In this document: positions 11,378-31,597 of the stretch, piece by piece
Layout of the letters: every line of letters begins with the position of its first letter
How positions within the stretch are numbered: position 1 is the first letter of the stretch
IMG/VR virus record: IMGVR_UViG_3300044695_004828
Span: 1 to 31,743 of that record
Strand: one strand, 5' to 3'
DNA: 31,743 nt
Origin: a virus
Notes under the pieces: model-generated
Seen by the model: the letters and a program-made list of their open reading frames with translations, nothing else
Databases searched by the model: none
What the model was told of the DNA's origin: nothing
Program-made: the position numbers and the translations under genes

Positions 11378-12427
11378 TCAGCTCGTGACGTCGAGCACGA
11401 GGTAGCCGGAGACCGGCGCGACGAGCTCCACGGTGCTGTTGTCGATGACGCGACCCTCGATGCGACGGTCCTTCGGATCGTCCCAGTTCTCGACGGTCAT
11501 GTCCTCGAAGGCGAAGATCTGGGTGGTCGAGAAGCTCGTTGAGCCCTCGATGCCAACCAGACCGCCCGGACGGCTCACGAACACCGCCGAGTTCCCGAAG
11601 ACGAAGCTGCGGGTGGTGCTGGCTGCGCCCTTCTTCGTCGTGACCTTGACCGAGTCGTCAACGACGACCTGCACGCCGAACAGGTTCGGCGGGAGGCCGT
11701 ACTTGGCGAACGTATCCGAGCCCTGCAGGAAGGGCAGAGCGGCGGGGTAGTTCTTGACGTAGTCACGCACTTCGGCCGTCTGCGAGAGCAGGTTGGCGAT
11801 CACGGGGGAGATCACCATCATCACATCGTATTCCGCACGCACCGCGCCGCCGGTGGCGAGCGAGATGGCGCGCAGAGCGCCCTGGATGCCCTTCTGGATC
11901 ACGTTGCCGCCAGCGACTGACGTCGTCCACGGAGCGCCACCGGGCGACAGAGTGCCCGTCGCCGCGTAGTTGCCGACGTTGTTGAACGCCGTCTGCGCCG
12001 CCGAGCCCGTCAGCGCCGTCGCAGCGCGCATACCGCGCGCCGTCATGGCGAGCTGCGCCTTGCTGCGAGCGTGCTGGGCAACGACGTCCCACGCCGCCTG
12101 CTTGACGGTCTCGTTCGGGATGTAGAACGGGTACGCGTAGCGCTGGCAGGTGAACGCGACGAAGTCCTGCTCGTTCATCTTGCCGACCGGGCGGTCATTG
12201 CCCAAGGGCCAGACGAACTCGTTGATGTCCGTCACGCGGACGTTGTCGTCCGAGTTGAGGCGCAGGTAGTACCCGGTCATCTGGTTGGCCGGGACGATCT
12301 GCGCGTACTTGGTGATGGGGAAGGTGTTCACCGCACGGGTGAACTCCACCTGAAGAGCGCCCGTTGCGAGGGCGTTGGTGGACGGCACGTAGGTGTTCAG
12401 GCCGCCACCGACAGTCACGTAGCTCAT
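11378..12427 (-). CDS. Major capsid protein
   Basis: A 349-residue protein with the gross features of an HK97-fold capsid subunit: a flexible N-terminus (VGGGLNTYVPSTNALATG), a long helix-bearing middle with Ala-rich segments (RSKAQLAMTARGMRAATALTG), and a C-terminal beta part containing ENWDDPKDRRIEGRVI and a closing strand LVAPVSGYLVLDV. It is preceded by the best ribosome-binding site in the window (AAAGGAGGT), follows the protease/scaffold and surface-protein genes, and is followed by a strong hairpin, all consistent with the most abundant virion protein. The N-terminal motif VGGGLNTYVP recurs in the protease/scaffold gene. Confidence 0.85.
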   Translation of the reverse strand: MSYVTVGGGLNTYVPSTNALATGALQVEFTRAVNTFPITKYAQIVPANQMTGYYLRLNSDDNVRVTDINEFVWPLGNDRPVGKMNEQDFVAFTCQRYAYPFYIPNETVKQAAWDVVAQHARSKAQLAMTARGMRAATALTGSAAQTAFNNVGNYAATGTLSPGGAPWTTSVAGGNVIQKGIQGALRAISLATGGAVRAEYDVMMVISPVIANLLSQTAEVRDYVKNYPAALPFLQGSDTFAKYGLPPNLFGVQVVVDDSVKVTTKKGAASTTRSFVFGNSAVFVSRPGGLVGIEGSTSFSTTQIFAFEDMTVENWDDPKDRRIEGRVIDNSTVELVAPVSGYLVLDVTS

Positions 12428-12863: not shown

Positions 12864-13481
12864 TTAGCGGCGGGTGCGGGCGTTGATCGCCTTGGCAAAC
12901 TCTTCGGGCTTGCCGGCGAACTGCTTGACGAGGTCACCGACGTCGGCGATGCCCATTCCCTTGGGCATGGCGGCGCGGCTCATGTCGATCTTCGTCCCGA
13001 TGGGGTCGCGGGCGAACAGCTCGCGCCACGACTCGAGCAGGGAGACCGGGTCACGGGAGGCCTGTAGCTGGCCGACCAGCGCGTCGCGATGCGTGTCGGG
13101 GATGCGGTAGCCCTCCTGCTCCATGATCTCGATCTCGCGGGCGAACTTCTCGCGGGTGAGCTCGGCCTTCAGGGCCGCGTTCTCGCGCTCGATGCGGGCC
13201 ATGCGGGCGCGCAGGCCGTAGTGGCTCTTGGACGCGATGACCTCCTCGGCCTCCTCCTCGGGGGCCTCGACGTCATGGCTGCCGATGTCGATGTGGACGC
13301 CCTCGCCGCCTTCCTCGGCATCAAACTCCATGCCTTCGCCGGCCATCTCGTCCTTCTCTTCCTCGGCCATCTCTTCCTTGTCGCCCTCGTCGGCGAACTT
13401 CTTCTTCATCATCGCGGACAGGTCGGAGATCGCGCACTTCATGGCCTCGAGCTCCTCGCGGATGTCGTTGTCGGATGCCAT
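12864..13481 (-). CDS. Scaffolding protein from an internal in-frame start
   Basis: Inside the protease gene, an ATG at 13481 is preceded by a strong Shine-Dalgarno sequence, AAGGAGG (13496-13490), with 8 bp spacing. Translation from it yields the 205-residue C-terminal part alone: an acidic region rich in Glu, Asp and Met, a coiled-coil stretch (RARMARIERENAALKAELTR) and a C-terminal domain. Lambda C/Nu3 and Mu I/Z use the same nested arrangement, producing excess scaffold in frame with protease. The strength of the internal site for a Met that would otherwise be mid-protein is the main evidence. Confidence 0.7.
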   Translation of the reverse strand: MASDNDIREELEAMKCAISDLSAMMKKKFADEGDKEEMAEEEKDEMAGEGMEFDAEEGGEGVHIDIGSHDVEAPEEEAEEVIASKSHYGLRARMARIERENAALKAELTREKFAREIEIMEQEGYRIPDTHRDALVGQLQASRDPVSLLESWRELFARDPIGTKIDMSRAAMPKGMGIADVGDLVKQFAGKPEEFAKAINARTRR

Positions 13482-14360
13482 TGCGGCCTCCTCCTTATTC
13501 AGCGCCGGGACGAAGGTGTTGAGGCCACCACCGACCCCGGCGAGGTCGTGGTTGCTCTTTGAGAACGTGATGCGCTCGCCGCGGCGAGCGAAATGCGTGT
13601 CAGGAAGCGGCCGGCGCGGGGTCTCACGACCCAGCAGCGCCACCTCGGACAGGTGGTCGCTCTCGGACCAGATCTCCGCCGACCGCCTGGGGAAGGCGTT
13701 CGTGGCGATAAGTCTGTCGAAGATGTCCCTGCCGACCTCCATGTCTCCCACAATGTACCCAACGCCATCCCGTTCCTCGTATCGGAGTTGCGGGATTCGA
13801 CCGACCGCGCTCTTGGGCTCCTTGCCATCCTTCTCGTGCATGATCACGATGCGGGGGTAGGAGCCTCGGGCCATGTGCTTCCCGGTAGCGGCGACGATCT
13901 TCTTCAGGCGCTTGTTGTCGAAGCGCTTGAGCTCGGGGTCGGCCTCGCCATCGTCGATGGCTGGGTCGAACGCCATGAAGAGCTCAACGCCACGCAGGAC
14001 GACCTTGTCGTCGTCCTCAACAACCTCGTGCGATGCCTTCTGGTTCACGCTCTTGCCCTCCTTGCGGTCCATTTCGGCCACCTTGCGCTCGGCCCACGCC
14101 TTGCCGGCGTCGCCGCCCCAGAGCAGCCACGCGATATACCCGGCGTCATCATCCCCGCCCTTCTGGTTGCCCTCGTGGCGGGCAAAGAAGGACGCCATGC
14201 GGCGCACGGTGTCGGCGGACAGGCTGGCCCGGTTCTTGAGGTCGCGGGCGCGCGCCACGCCGACCTCGGTGCCCCCACGGCCGTGCTTGGCCCGCAGCTC
14301 AAGGCCGCGGGCGGCGTTAGACGCCATCTCCTGGGTGGGCTTGAAATCGATGTCGGTCAT
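12864..14360 (-). CDS. Capsid maturation protease fused to scaffold (Mu I-like)
   Basis: A 498-residue protein starting at ATG 14360, overlapping the previous stop as ATGA. Three parts are visible. Residues 1-115 contain a phage-typical segment (GVARARDLKNR, then RRMASFFARHE and GYIAWLLWGGDAGKAWA). Residues about 120-290 form the protease, with KRLKKIVAATGKHM, a conserved RRSAEIW segment holding a candidate catalytic Ser, and LSEVALLGRETPR as in Mu I or assemblin-type proteases. From about residue 294 comes an acidic, coiled-coil scaffold. The protease would cleave scaffold and other head proteins during maturation. The catalytic His is not assigned with confidence. Confidence 0.75.
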   Translation of the reverse strand: MTDIDFKPTQEMASNAARGLELRAKHGRGGTEVGVARARDLKNRASLSADTVRRMASFFARHEGNQKGGDDDAGYIAWLLWGGDAGKAWAERKVAEMDRKEGKSVNQKASHEVVEDDDKVVLRGVELFMAFDPAIDDGEADPELKRFDNKRLKKIVAATGKHMARGSYPRIVIMHEKDGKEPKSAVGRIPQLRYEERDGVGYIVGDMEVGRDIFDRLIATNAFPRRSAEIWSESDHLSEVALLGRETPRRPLPDTHFARRGERITFSKSNHDLAGVGGGLNTFVPALNKEEAAMASDNDIREELEAMKCAISDLSAMMKKKFADEGDKEEMAEEEKDEMAGEGMEFDAEEGGEGVHIDIGSHDVEAPEEEAEEVIASKSHYGLRARMARIERENAALKAELTREKFAREIEIMEQEGYRIPDTHRDALVGQLQASRDPVSLLESWRELFARDPIGTKIDMSRAAMPKGMGIADVGDLVKQFAGKPEEFAKAINARTRR

Positions 14361-16162
14361 GCGGATGCGAGAAGCGCTGACACAAGGCCATTCATCATCG
14401 CCGTGTACCCGTCCGTCGGATGCCACGTGCTTACTCCAATCAGCCCGCCGGAAAGGTGCTGATAGAAATCCGAACCTGCGTTTGGCCAGTTGCTGATGCG
14501 CTGATAGTAGGGCTTGCCAACCGTCGACAAAGCCGGAACGCCCGTCGCTCCAATTTCTCCCGTGCCCATGAGCAGCTGGTTGTAGTTGAACAGTCGCTTG
14601 ATATCCACGACCGTCATATCGGGATTGTCAATTGCCATCTGATTCGCAGCCGCTCGCACTGTCGCCAGGTTGCCACCCGTACCCAGCGAACTGTTGTCCT
14701 GTGCATCAATCTGATGGCTTACCCATCCAACGGTTGCAAGGTCCGATTCCGGGTATCCAAGGTTCTTCCATGCCAGCTTGTACGTTGCCCAGATGTCCTT
14801 CGCTGCTTGGACCCACTTCGCCGGCGTTTCTGGCTGGCTCGTAGTGGTTGCATTCACTCCAAACTGATACATCACAACGACACGACCAGATCCGCCAGCC
14901 AAAATCTGCCGCTCTCGAATCTCTTGCAAGAGCAGTTTGATGCGGTCGAGGTTGTTGCCAATCACCGTAGCGATGGCATCACTGCTGAATCCGCCGAGAT
15001 ACGAATGCGAGTGAACCGACCAGCCCTTCACCTTGCGGTACATTGAGACGCTATGTACAGCGAGCGGTCCCTTGCACTGCTCTCCTGAAGGTCCAACAAA
15101 GGACCACGTGGCTCTGTAGGAGGTCGTTCCGCTCGTCACCCACGACTTCTCGTAGGCAGAGTATGAGTACGACGGTCCGAGGCTTGACTGGAATGCACGC
15201 GGGGAGAACTGTTCTGCGCTTGATCCATTGAAGACCATCGGCGCAAACCCACCCCCCGTAGCCGGGTCGGTGCCGTATCGGATACGCCAGAACACTGTCT
15301 GCCCAGTTGCTGCTAGCGGATGGTTTGAGTTGATTTCGTAACCGAACGTCTGGAAGTACTGCGCTGATCCAGTTGCAAGATAAGCCCAGTTATCACGCGA
15401 ATCCGGACTTGAACTGCTTGATCCATATCGCGTGAAGTTGCCGTTGGGAGACCAACCTGCATATGCGGTCGCGCCTCCCGATGTGTTGCCGGACTGCAGC
15501 GCACCTGTTGGGGCAAAAAGGTTGATCGCTCCGCGCCACAAGCCGGGCGCGTTATCGACGTTTCTGCCATTCATGGCTGGCGCAATGGCTGCGCCGTAGT
15601 TGGTGTATCCACGCTGCAACAGCGTTTCGCTCAAGCCGGAGTAATAACCCCAGAAATCATAGAGCGCGCTTCCGACATTGCTATCGCCGATGATGATGAA
15701 GTCGGCACTGTCGGTCCCCGATGCCAAGTCTGCCATGAACCGCGAGGCGCGAGACGAACCGTACACGACTGGGCCAGCCATTGCGGGCTCAACCGACCCC
15801 ACGCGCTGCGCCCAGAAGATCTCGCCGCTGACTGCGGCGTCGCAAGCCACGAACTGAATCCGGGCGGTCGCCACACTCACTGCGCCGTTCGTCGTCGGTC
15901 GCAGGCCGTCGCCGACCGCAATCGTCCCGCCGGCGCGGAGCTGTACGAACTCGCTGTTCTGCAGGACCACCGGGTCGCCTGCCACGGCGTGGTTCGTGGA
16001 GTCGAACGCCCGCGTGCTGCCGTCGGTGATCCCGAGCACCACTTCGTCCTCGAGCGTGGCGACCTGGACGCGGAACGGGTCCGTGGTGCCAGCCTTCACG
16101 CACGAGAACGGGAGGATGGTGCTGGCCGCGGTGAAGTTCGGGGTATGTCCTGCGATTCCCAT
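14357..16162 (-). CDS. Capsid surface-type domain fused to an SGNH/GDSL hydrolase-like domain
   Basis: A 601-residue protein. Residues 1-128 are a paralogue of the two surface proteins (VVLGITDGSTRAFDSTNHA). The rest carries SGNH hydrolase signatures: block I FIIIGDSNVG with Ser161, block III FGVN with Asn437, and block V STWHPTDGY with His581. The Asp usually three residues before that His is Ser here, so a Ser-His dyad is more likely than a full triad. A beta-rich insertion of about 250 residues separates blocks I and III. The DNA of the hydrolase part is visibly less G+C-rich than the surrounding head genes, suggesting acquisition. A virion-surface esterase acting on host polysaccharide is the inference. 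Confidence 0.75.
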   Translation of the reverse strand: MGIAGHTPNFTAASTILPFSCVKAGTTDPFRVQVATLEDEVVLGITDGSTRAFDSTNHAVAGDPVVLQNSEFVQLRAGGTIAVGDGLRPTTNGAVSVATARIQFVACDAAVSGEIFWAQRVGSVEPAMAGPVVYGSSRASRFMADLASGTDSADFIIIGDSNVGSALYDFWGYYSGLSETLLQRGYTNYGAAIAPAMNGRNVDNAPGLWRGAINLFAPTGALQSGNTSGGATAYAGWSPNGNFTRYGSSSSSPDSRDNWAYLATGSAQYFQTFGYEINSNHPLAATGQTVFWRIRYGTDPATGGGFAPMVFNGSSAEQFSPRAFQSSLGPSYSYSAYEKSWVTSGTTSYRATWSFVGPSGEQCKGPLAVHSVSMYRKVKGWSVHSHSYLGGFSSDAIATVIGNNLDRIKLLLQEIRERQILAGGSGRVVVMYQFGVNATTTSQPETPAKWVQAAKDIWATYKLAWKNLGYPESDLATVGWVSHQIDAQDNSSLGTGGNLATVRAAANQMAIDNPDMTVVDIKRLFNYNQLLMGTGEIGATGVPALSTVGKPYYQRISNWPNAGSDFYQHLSGGLIGVSTWHPTDGYTAMMNGLVSALLASA

Positions 16163-16165
16163 GAT

Positions 16166-16555
16166 TCAGATCTCCCAAGTCTGGACGCGGAAGGCCCAGA
16201 TGATTTCATTGTCTGCTGAAGCGCTCTCACACGCCTGGAAGAAGGCGCGGTCGCCTGCTGCCGGGACAAGCTTGCCGCCCGTGGAGACCTTCAGGAGGTC
16301 ACCGACCGCACACGCGGCCCCTGCGGTCACCTGTACGAAGCGCCCGTTCTGAAGGCTCACCGGGCCGCCGGCGATGGCGTGCTGGGTGGAGTCAAAGGCG
16401 CGGGTGCTGCCGTCGGTCACGCCGAGCACGACCTGCACTGGATCTTCTGCCAGGCTCAAGGTAAACGCTGACCCGGCAATCCGCACGGCGCGATACGGGG
16501 ACAACACCTGCGCGGGGGCGCAGGTGAAGTTCGGGACGTATCCGGCGGTGCCCAC
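16166..16555 (-). CDS. Capsid surface/decoration-type protein (paralogue C)
   Basis: A 129-residue protein starting at GTG 16555, two bases after the polyprotein stop. Its N-terminus (MGTAGYVPNFT) and core (VVLGVTDGSTRAFDSTQHAIAGGP) match the first domain of the following 601-residue protein closely, and the 128-residue protein near the capsid gene more loosely. Like them it ends in an aromatic strand (IIWAFRVQTWE). It may be a second decoration protein or a free form of the domain displayed by its neighbour, allowing mixed occupancy of capsid sites (inference). Confidence 0.7.
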   Translation of the reverse strand: MGTAGYVPNFTCAPAQVLSPYRAVRIAGSAFTLSLAEDPVQVVLGVTDGSTRAFDSTQHAIAGGPVSLQNGRFVQVTAGAACAVGDLLKVSTGGKLVPAAGDRAFFQACESASADNEIIWAFRVQTWEI

Positions 16556-16556
16556 T

Positions 16557-18515
16557 TCAGAGCTCTCCCCGCCGCTTCATGTCGAGCGCGATGGCGACCG
16601 CCTGGTCCTGCGGCTTTCCCTCGGCGATGAGGGTGCGGATCTTGTCGCTGACGGCCTTGTCGGCCTTCTCCATGAGCTTCAGGCCGGCCTTGACGTCCTC
16701 GCGCTCGAGGTCGGAGGGCTTGGCGGCCGTGGCCTTCGCGCCGGGGCGGGAGGCGCGGGACTTCTTGATCCTCTCGCCAATGTCCATCAATCGCTCTCGC
16801 GTGCTGCTTCCGGCGCGGTTCAGGTCGGGATGAGCAGTAATCATCTTCGCTGCTTGATCGTAGAAATCTTGAGCGACCGCGTAATTCTTTCTAGCAACCG
16901 CCGTACCCGCATAGTCCAACAATCGCAGGAACGCTGCCATGACACTTGCGTCCGCAAACGTGGCCTTCGCGCCGGGGCGGGACCACACGCCTGCGGCTTT
17001 TGCGACTTCGGGCCAACTACGCGATTCCCAATGCTCGCTGTCGGACTCAAAGGTCTTTTCCATCTTGTCCGTGGCTTCCATCATCTCATCCACGGTTCGG
17101 AAATTTTGTGCAATCCAGGCACGCAGATGCGACTGCTCCTGCTGCGTCATCCGGCGCATCTTCGCCTTCGCGCCGGGGCGGGAGAACTCGGCGGCGCGCT
17201 CAAGGTTCTGCGTGAAGCCACGCAGCTCAGCTGCAGGCTTTCCCATGCGATCCCACGTGCGGACGGCAATCTGCGCCGCGCGACCTGCCTCAACGGCGAA
17301 GCGATTCGCGTCCTTGGTGTTGCCCTGCTTGAGCAGGCGATTAGACGCTTGGGTGTTGTCGTAGTAGTCGATCAGCGCCTTCTGCAGCGCATCGCGCTGC
17401 GCGCCGGCAGGCACGTCCGCGATGGCTTTCCCGACGATGGCGAGCGCGGCGCTCTTGTCCATCTTCGCCTTCGCGCCATGCGCGGCGAACTGTGCTGCCC
17501 AGACTCGCAATTCCTTCGGAACGAAGTGGGTCGTGAGCAGCGAGTCCGTCTTTGCGAGCAGCGCCTTCGCCCTCTTGCCATCGCCGGAACGCGCTGCCTT
17601 GAGGAGATTCTCAAAGAACGCGAAGTCCTTCTTCTGGCCGGAGGTCATTCGCTTCTGCTCACCAGCGTCGCGGTACTTGTTCGGCGTGAACAGGCGCGTC
17701 GACTCTTGGAACTTGGCGTACAGTCGCTCGAGTTCCGGGACGCCCGGTGCTGCCGCCATCTTCGCCTTCGCGCCGGGGCGGGAGGACTTGATCTTCTCCA
17801 TCGACCCGTCCTCATGCAGCCAGTACGGCGTGTTGTCGGGGTCGCTTGCAGAGATGCCGTGCCACTCAAGGTCGGCGAGATCCGTTATCCCCTGGGCCTT
17901 GAGCTGCTTGCGAAGCGCGCCAGCGGTAGTGCGCTTGCTGCCAAAGGCTGCCTTCGCGCCGGGGCGGGAGGACTTGAGCGTTTCCGCGTATCGCTTCAAT
18001 TGTTCGACGGAACCACGCTTGATGGTTTGCGGAGCGCGCCCTGGTTGAACTCGCATGAGCGAACCATTGCCAGTCGCGCCCTCAACAACGATAGCCCATT
18101 GCGTTCCGTTGATGGTTGCCGTCCATTGCTTGGACAGGTCGCCCCATCCTTCGGATGCGTCTAGCGTCCACCGCGCCATCTTCGCCTTCGCGCCGGGGCG
18201 GGAAGCTAGCAACTTCTTCTTCCGCTCAACCTCCCGCAGGTAGGATTCTAGTTCATCGCGCATCGCTCCAGGCGGCGTTTGGCGAAGCTTATTGTCGACC
18301 TGCAATGCCCTATCGCGGTAATGAATGAACGCGATGTACTTGCCCTGCTTGAACCGAGGCGCATCTGGCTCGTCTTGCCGCTTGGCCCGTTCATCGATGT
18401 ATCGGTCCTCTGAAAGCCACTTGGCCGGAAGTGCCATCTTCGCCTTCGCGCCGGGGTGCGCCGCCATGCCCAGCCGGGCAGCGATCTGCTTACGAGTGTT
18501 GCTCATGTCCCTCAT
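16557..18515 (-). CDS. Motif-punctuated modular head polyprotein of unknown function
   Basis: A 652-residue, largely helical, basic protein without membrane segments. A short motif, consensus (S/R)RPGAKAKM, occurs eight times, with GAKA near residues 22, 108, 186, 248, 347, 448, 515 and 592, separated by 62-101 residues. The segments between motifs do not resemble each other. The last ends KIRTLIAEGKPQDQAVAIALDMKRRGEL, similar to small basic phage proteins. It lies between the Mu F-like gene and the surface and protease genes, so it is probably a head protein. Possible roles for the motif are maturation-protease sites, capsid-targeting signals or recombination junctions. No family is recognised. 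AAGGAGG precedes the start; a second Met at residue 4 is also possible. Confidence 0.75.
   Translation of the reverse strand: MRDMSNTRKQIAARLGMAAHPGAKAKMALPAKWLSEDRYIDERAKRQDEPDAPRFKQGKYIAFIHYRDRALQVDNKLRQTPPGAMRDELESYLREVERKKKLLASRPGAKAKMARWTLDASEGWGDLSKQWTATINGTQWAIVVEGATGNGSLMRVQPGRAPQTIKRGSVEQLKRYAETLKSSRPGAKAAFGSKRTTAGALRKQLKAQGITDLADLEWHGISASDPDNTPYWLHEDGSMEKIKSSRPGAKAKMAAAPGVPELERLYAKFQESTRLFTPNKYRDAGEQKRMTSGQKKDFAFFENLLKAARSGDGKRAKALLAKTDSLLTTHFVPKELRVWAAQFAAHGAKAKMDKSAALAIVGKAIADVPAGAQRDALQKALIDYYDNTQASNRLLKQGNTKDANRFAVEAGRAAQIAVRTWDRMGKPAAELRGFTQNLERAAEFSRPGAKAKMRRMTQQEQSHLRAWIAQNFRTVDEMMEATDKMEKTFESDSEHWESRSWPEVAKAAGVWSRPGAKATFADASVMAAFLRLLDYAGTAVARKNYAVAQDFYDQAAKMITAHPDLNRAGSSTRERLMDIGERIKKSRASRPGAKATAAKPSDLEREDVKAGLKLMEKADKAVSDKIRTLIAEGKPQDQAVAIALDMKRRGEL
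16732..18462 (-). repeat. Dispersed in-frame 20-bp repeat, eight copies
   Basis: On the plus strand the 20-mer gccttcgcgccggggcggga is exact at 16732, 16963, 17164, 17764, 17950 and 18184, and diverged at 17467 and 18442. It encodes the RPGAKA motif in reverse. Distances between exact copies (231, 201, 600, 186, 234) are all multiples of three, while the intervening DNA differs in sequence and base composition. Conservation at the nucleotide level exceeds what the peptide requires, which suggests recent spread or ongoing recombination at the repeat. Confidence 0.9.
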
Positions 18516-30595: not shown

Positions 30596-31597
30596 ATGAC
30601 GGCATTGGCACGGCTTGATGACGAGAAGCGCGACCTGCTCGCTCGCACCCTTTGCTCGGGCGCGACCCGCGACGAGCTCGACCTGTTCTTCAACATCTGC
30701 GAGCGCACCGGGCTCGACCCGTTCGCCCGCCAAATCTACGCGGTGAAGCGGTGGGACAAGCGCGCCGGCCGCGAGGTCATGCAGACGCAGGTCAGCATCG
30801 ACGGCTTCCGCCTCGTCGCCCAGCGCAGCGGCGAGTACGCAGGGCAGACTGCCGTGGCCTACTGCGGCACGGACGGGGTCTGGGTGGACGTCTGGCTGCA
30901 CGAGGAGCCGCCGGCGGCCGCACGTGTCGGCGTCTACCGCAAGGGGTTCGTTGAGGCGGTCGGGGCCATCGCCCTGTTCCGCGAGTACGCGCAGCGGTCG
31001 AAGGACGGCTACCTCACCGGGATGTGGGGCAAGATGCCCTCGGTGATGATCGCCAAGTGCGCCGAGGCGCTCGCCCTCCGCAAGGCGTTCCCCGCCGAAC
31101 TCTCGGGCCTGTACACCCCCGAGGAGATGGCGCAGGCCGACAATCCGCCGGCGGCCCCCGCCGTCCCGGCTGTCGCTGCCCTGCCCGCCCCGGCCCCGGA
31201 GCCCGTGGAGGCCGCCACGATGCCCCAGGACGCGCCGGCAGTCGCCGACGCCCCGAAGTCCGTCCGCAAGCGCAAGGCCGCGCAGGACGCCCCTGCGGCC
31301 GCCCCGGCGTCGCCCAACGACATCCCGGTCGCCAAGCCCAAGGACACCTACCCCGATGAGCTCATCGGGACCTTCCGCATCCACGGGGTCGTTCGCCGGG
31401 AGGGTCGGGCGCACGCCATCGACGCCACCGGGGAGTTTGGCCGGCTCTGGATCGCCACGACGGTGAACGAGTACGCGCGGCTCTGCGAGCAGGCCACGGA
31501 CGCCGACCTCACGCTTGACGTCGCCCGCGTCGGGAACGCCATGACCATCATGCGCGTCCTGCGCTCAAAGCCCGCCGAGGAGGCCACCCATGTCTGA
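30596..31597 (+). CDS. bet: Bet/RecT-type single-strand annealing protein
   Basis: A 333-residue protein with a strong ribosome-binding site. The N-terminal 180 residues match the Bet/RecT family: [28 protein letters not shown], then [21 protein letters not shown], then [23 protein letters not shown] and [10 protein letters not shown]. The protein coats single-stranded DNA and promotes annealing in recombination-linked replication. A Pro/Ala-rich linker (about 182-250) leads to an extra C-terminal domain of about 80 residues ([13 protein letters not shown] onward) of unknown role, perhaps partner binding. An exonuclease or single-strand-binding partner is not seen and may follow beyond the right edge. 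Confidence 0.88.

Follow-up and report, generated by a model that had tools for sequence, protein, structure and literature searches.

A head-cluster gene punctuated by a recurring motif

The window, by which we mean the whole 31,743-nucleotide stretch of IMG/VR virus record IMGVR_UViG_3300044695_004828, contains at 16557..18515 on the minus strand a gene encoding a 652-aa protein with an ATG start and a predicted pI of 10.0; the plus-strand reading of this interval is interrupted by stops. Its upstream neighbour encodes a MuF-like minor head protein (PF04233; 18537..19616, minus), next to the gene of a Mu-type portal protein (PF06074; 19613..21097, minus). On the other flank are a decoration-like gene, a fusion of a decoration-type domain (phrog_673) with an apparent SGNH hydrolase bearing a GDSN motif (14357-16162, minus), and a putative protease/scaffold protein with an N-terminal phrog_2859 domain (12864..14426, minus), which agrees with the head-cluster location given in a preliminary description of this DNA.

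That description had noted a 652-residue protein repeating RPGAKAKM eight times. We found eight copies at spacings of 62-101 residues, with the consensus (S/A)(R/H)PGAKA-x-(M/F); seven are strict PGAKA copies and one is degenerate (AAHGAKAKM, aa 344-352). Since copy 1 is spelled HPGAKAKM and several others terminate in AF, TF or TA, the eightfold RPGAKAKM is to be read as a consensus. A composition-matched protein is expected to contain PGAKA 0.004 times, and the maximum in 2,000 shuffles was 1 against the seven strict copies, ruling out chance repetition. The segments between the copies are 55-94 aa long, and clustering placed the segments of this array in nine different families without mutual similarity. 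A tandem or fibre repeat was therefore ruled out, as had been argued before. A Pfam search of the 652-aa protein gave no match, and its sole PHROGs match was phrog_2423, at the tail.

Parts of the array

All parts lie on the minus strand and are given here in the direction of translation. The protein opens with a constant N-terminal leader (MRDMSNTRKQIAARLGMA; 18462..18515), the beginning of which is found in most array ORFs, and joint 1 (18441..18461) is a leader version of the motif-coding sequence, GCGGCGCACCCCGGCGCGAAGGCG. Cassette D (79 aa; 18204..18440) follows the leader here and follows cassette C in another array, L056. Joint 2 (18183..18203) has the exact 21-bp core TCCCGCCCCGGCGCGAAGGCG and precedes cassette C (71 aa; 17970..18182), modelled as a beta-sheet and helix domain. 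Joint 3 (17949..17969), cassette M (55 aa; 17784..17948) and joint 4, again an exact core (17763..17783), lead to cassette A (92 aa; 17487..17762), which is present in 11 of the 12 arrays of the same species. The upstream half of joint 5 (17466..17486) is degenerate (GCCGCGCAT) and travels with cassette A. Beyond it are cassette J (94 aa, a four-helix domain model; 17184..17465), joint 6 with the exact core (17163..17183), cassette E (60 aa; 16983..17162), joint 7 (16962..16982), cassette H (70 aa; 16752..16961) and joint 8 (16731..16751). The protein ends in a constant C-terminal tail (...KIRTLIAEGKPQDQAVAIALDMKRRGEL; 16557..16730), the part matched by phrog_2423.

Related arrays and the cassette pool

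Relatives were gathered from IMG/VR by a pattern scan and a protein scan, and array ORFs with one to seven strict motif copies were found on many contigs; a second pattern, in which M was replaced by F, returned 67 stretches. A search of the INPHARED phage collection with the whole 652-aa protein gave no match, and all copies come from metagenome contigs. The IMG/VR set comprised 105 distinct array ORFs. Their internal cassettes numbered 265, of which 214 were distinct in sequence and fell into 115 families. The pool is open, most families having been encountered once (67 of 115 were singletons).

Across phages, cassettes measured 60-142 aa (10th-90th percentile) with a median pI of 9.5. Arrays held at most seven internal cassettes, and one family occurred twice in 2 of the 69 arrays with at least two internal cassettes. 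Most arrays open with the leader MSNTRKQIAARLGMA... and close with a tail ending QAVAIALDMKRRGEL. A given cassette could be flanked by as many as 11 different neighbours on its left and 11 on its right, with its ends still falling exactly at the joint. We also observed an empty mini-cassette in L014, L058 and L105/L129, where two joints stand 11 residues apart (RPGAKAKGTASRPGAKA). When terminase and portal were compared with those of cultured phages, the matches had only 20-29% identity. In bacterial genome contigs the motif pattern gave only four isolated single matches, in unrelated bacteria, and no host is therefore proposed.

Permutation within a species and sharing between distant phages

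One phage species was represented by twelve array versions with flanks 96-99.9% identical. The upstream flanks of the eleven other distinct arrays were 96.5-98.9% identical to that of the window; on one contig the match runs for more than 4 kb, as far as the first joint. Recurring cassettes were 95-100% identical and stood in differing orders. With B for the leader and F for the tail, the window reads B-D-C-M-A-J-E-H-F, that is, leader-D-C-M-A-J-E-H-tail. Comparison with the strings B-A-E-H-?-C-K (L053; leader-A-E-H-?-C-tail), B-D-L-A-C-G (L091), B-D-A-C-G (L061), B-D-L-A-I-E-K (L125), B-C-I-?-A-?-E-?-F (L096) and ?-A-?-C-D-F (L056), together with five more, revealed both D-C and C-D, as well as C before A and A before C, indicating true permutation beyond gain and loss. 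One array (L051) was exactly as in the window. In two cases different metagenomes yielded the same array (L053 and L103; L037 and L096), which speaks against chimeric assembly. Cassettes are also shared with distant phages: the DNA of cassette C was 98.8% identical in L133/L134, phages with backbones about 70% identical (portal genes compared with that of the window).

Conservation of the joint as DNA

In related phages, 261 of 297 RPGAK peptides were spelled by the same 15 nt, CGCCCCGGCGCGAAG, when 5.9 were expected from codon use. Among 213 distinct instances the codons were CGC in 200, CCC in 203, GGC in 209, GCG in 205 and AAG in 208, against background frequencies of 0.46, 0.41, 0.54, 0.37 and 0.90. 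Fourfold sites were compared in nine near-complete genomes: those of the joints were 87.5-100% identical to the window core, and those of the terminase, portal and major head genes were 39-67% identical to the window. The spelling was kept even between phages with backbone fourfold sites near saturation. Synonymous variation was visibly greater in the conserved constant tail than in the joint, and about half of the synonymous sites differ between cassette C and its copy in L041, yet the same joint borders both. All joints were in frame and none out of frame. As judged from these alignments, the motif is conserved at the DNA level rather than as a peptide alone.

The peptide matters as well. 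Change within the joint was moderately amino-acid-conserving (omega-like 0.4-0.5), and of the 214 cassettes 206 begin with M or F (residue +7, after PGAKA-x); together these observations indicate some selection on the joint peptide too, and a DNA-only view leaves the M/F preference unexplained. The cassette-initial M may be the remnant of a start codon, for a relative of cassette C in L205 and L206 apparently starts its ORF at the joint ATG, behind a ribosome-binding-like stretch of the AGGAGGTG type. A diverged spelling of the joint, SRPGEKEMM or SRLGEKEMM, is repeated inside one array (L206, 3001-3903), and this pattern suggests lineage-wise homogenisation of the joint.

Position of the partner switch

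Aligned junctions showed that bases before the core go with the upstream cassette and bases after it with the downstream cassette, and at every junction inspected the switch of partners fell inside the joint. Only GGCGCGAAGGC to TCCCGCCCCGGCGCGAAGGC was common to the joints sampled. Ordinary joints share TCCCGCCCCGGCGCGAAGGC; cassette A always ends in GCCGCGCAT and shares only GGCGCGAAGGC with eight different downstream partners, as counted among the junction contexts sampled. The simplest reading of these alignments is that crossover would take place within 11-20 bp of joint. RecA-type exchange inside shared cassettes could also carry junctions that already exist into further arrays, the degenerate cassette-A allele among them, and an 11-bp minimal crossover is therefore not forced. 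Collectively, the alignments demonstrated a joint conserved as DNA and cassettes that behave as conserved domains, permuted within a species and shared with distant phages.

Cassettes as domains and the nature of the product

The values for cassettes C, J, E and A (dN/dS-like, 0.09-0.19) indicated purifying selection. AlphaFold models, built from shallow alignments, gave a beta-sheet and helix for cassette C (pLDDT 72.7) and four helices for cassette J (pLDDT 74.8); both cassettes were compact, and the motif ends fell below pLDDT 50 in both models. As modelled, these two cassettes are separate domains and the motif is disordered. The preliminary description had pictured small independent proteins joined by a common tag and had suggested predicting each segment alone; the cassette families and the two models support that picture, the motif lying inside a continuous fold in neither. 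Foldseek comparison of the C and J models with the PDB gave nothing below E 0.1, and a PDB profile search of the arrays gave nothing. Pfam searches of 60 arrays returned only DUF7678 (3) and TACC_C (1, a coiled-coil match). Weak Pfam matches of cassettes J and C (EAD1, 0.017, and STING_LBD, 0.24) were treated as chance.

The array protein, with its pI of 10.0, stands apart from the portal, major head and scaffold proteins, which have pI values near 5-6. The array gene is adjacent to MuF or, in G001 and G002, sits between the terminase and portal genes; in G003, G007, G008 and G025 arrays occupy both positions. We found that the phrog_2859 domain (aa 22-133 of the protein at 12864-14426 in the window) occurs once per genome in 9 of 10 genomes. 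It is fused to the putative protease/scaffold protein in the window, G003, G004, G005 and G025, and caps the leader at the array N-terminus in G001, G002, G006 and G008. This swap fits a common role inside the prohead. Considering the basic pI, the position among head genes by MuF and the phrog_2859 swap, the array product is probably a basic, capsid-packaged cargo, so the internal-head cargo proposed earlier is plausible.

Recombination proteins and a proposed mechanism

The window encodes at 30596..31597, on the plus strand, a single-strand annealing protein (SSAP) of the lambda Bet/RecT family, which scored 105 bits against TIGR01913 (curated cut-off 76.95) and 104.9 bits against PF03837 (cut-off 24; 5e-30). 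An SSAP candidate of varying kind was found in 10 of 10 near-complete genomes; RecT was found in G006, ERF in G001, G002, G003, G007, G008 and G025, and RecT-like proteins, by weak PHROGs matches, in G004 and G005. SSAPs drive relaxed recombination between phages (PMC3945230). They are common in phages, and hence their presence here is not specific.

We consider it likely that the gene holds an array of cassettes, all in frame, between a constant leader and a constant tail, and that the cassettes are shuffled at a joint of 15-21 bp, the process probably being single-strand annealing. On this reading the leader and the tail enclose a variable series of small exchangeable domain cassettes, linked by the joint core TCCCGCCCCGGCGCGAAGGC, which doubles as the code for a flexible basic linker, SRPGAKA. 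New junctions would form by recombination through the short joint between phage genomes during replication or co-infection, and the phage's own annealing protein (Bet/RecT, ERF or RecT-like) would be the likely agent. With less confidence, we suggest that the product may be packaged in the head as basic cargo and perhaps ejected with the DNA, and that cassette turnover may vary what the phage delivers. A wider extension is offered as a tentative possibility: many lineages might share a public cassette pool, the standard joint serving both as annealing homology and as a linker, possibly processed, in a packaged protein, and populations might thereby go on producing fresh combinations of injected domains for host takeover or counter-defence.

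Alternative explanations

The preliminary description had taken the motif for a cleavage or targeting signal, at which a maturation protease would release internal-head peptides from a polyprotein. The M or F after PGAKA-x does suggest a requirement at the peptide level, both models leave the motif disordered and accessible, and the same cluster encodes a protein in which a His (H197) and a Ser (S249) are invariant. However, a protease would be blind to the fixed DNA spelling, and the motif behaves as the exchange point. RPGAKA is absent from the other window proteins, among them the portal, MuF, major head and scaffold proteins, and degenerate joints (AAHGAKA, the GCCGCGCAT half) persist next to the most widely used cassette. 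The candidate at 12864-14426 lies three genes downstream, not two, and found no protease family match in Pfam, PHROGs, NCBIfam or PDB profiles. We therefore regard a polyprotein as unlikely, while cleavage at the linkers is possible and compatible with a cassette array. A dedicated recombinase or nuclease acting on the joint, as in integrons or shufflons, would explain why one fixed short sequence borders the cassettes, always in the same orientation. Against this, neither tyrosine (PF00589) nor serine (PF00239) recombinases were found in 17 records, many of them fragments; clearly degenerate half-joints still have many partners; and free or inverted cassettes were not seen among the fetched loci, which are assembled contigs. 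We consider such an enzyme quite improbable.

Mosaicism by relaxed recombination is common in phages (PMC3945230), and the joint might in principle be a linker inherited from a recent common source that plays no part in recombination, with cassettes relocated by illegitimate events and then sieved by selection. Under common descent, synonymous positions would have drifted in the joint as they have in the backbone (39-67% identity); those of the joint have not, and cassettes with up to 11 neighbours on either side end exactly at the joint. This explanation is accordingly very doubtful in our view. That an assembler spliced unrelated pieces at short identical joints could be suspected because every copy comes from metagenome contigs and none from INPHARED. 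However, separate metagenomes gave identical arrays, the flanks stay colinear for kilobases, no reading frame is broken, and near-complete genomes hold several distinct array genes, so that such an artefact is extremely improbable.

Relation to known systems

In integrons and shufflons, cassettes are bordered by a fixed short DNA site, as they are here; the array differs in that its cassettes are in-frame parts of one protein, no integrase or resolvase was found in the 17 records, and no free cassettes were seen among the fetched loci. In Borrelia VlsE, 17-bp direct repeats are present and silent copies are exchanged into one site by gene conversion. Short identical direct repeats thus border in-frame coding cassettes in both systems, but the array varies the order and number of whole cassettes. 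The T4 internal proteins are encoded by separate genes and carry one removable N-terminal capsid-targeting sequence. They resemble the array product as small basic head proteins and possible injected cargo; the latter differs in being one chain with repeated joints. Lambdoid phages carry 'boundary sequences' at module borders. These share with the array short common sequences at module borders and an SSAP as the likely agent, and the same holds for phage mosaicism by Rad52-like annealing proteins (De Paepe et al. 2014, PMC3945230). In the known cases the borders fall between genes or at various positions, whereas one standard joint recurs here several times inside a single reading frame.

Polyvalent proteins are multidomain, are encoded beside portal/MuF genes and have been inferred to be packaged and injected, and cassette recombination has been suggested at one kinase locus (Iyer et al. 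2017, PMC5512222). The window array, with nine segment families, likewise combines several domains in one chain. It differs in that Pfam found no polyvalent enzyme or LPD domain in 60 arrays, and in that the arrays are built mostly of 60-142-aa domains with one DNA/peptide joint and an order permuted within a species. Polymorphic toxin systems, including MuF toxins, also obtain variable domains by recombination of cassettes into a gene near head genes (PMC3482391). In those systems the exchange concerns a single C-terminal toxin domain, with immunity genes behind it. In the array it is internal domains, many of them, that change order, and the constant tail forms the C-terminal end. A toxin or immunity gene was not found.

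Our search of the open-access literature found no paper that mentions RPGAKA and, as the preliminary description had supposed, no described system of this kind. Within that literature, the layout, in which many phages use a standard joint several times in a single reading frame, appears new; the ingredients, SSAP mosaicism and multidomain cargo, were already known. If the proposal is correct, phages own a standard-part system for multidomain proteins in which one joint is both recombination homology and peptide linker, and they share a pool of more than 100 cassette families; about 115 small, mostly unannotated domain families may then act on host cells. SSAP-driven mosaicism would be linked to rapid diversification of one delivered protein, and intragenic domain shuffling would become measurable in wild populations.

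Other features of the phage

Within the same phage species we observed a second variable region at 14364-16549, occupied here by the decoration-like gene and the decoration/SGNH-hydrolase fusion. In L051, L037, L056, L040 and L103 a 278-aa protein and a protein with a constant N-terminus and variable C-terminus substitute for this content, with flanks 93-99.5% identical despite the replacement. The fusion has relatives in G005 and G008 and is possibly, from its domain composition, an esterase displayed on the capsid. The phage also encodes a C-5 cytosine DNA methyltransferase (PF00145; 27705-29459, plus). Finally, the stretch VGGGLNT(F/Y)VP is common to the putative scaffold (12864-14426) and the major head protein (11378-12427, minus), in the latter near the N-terminus.
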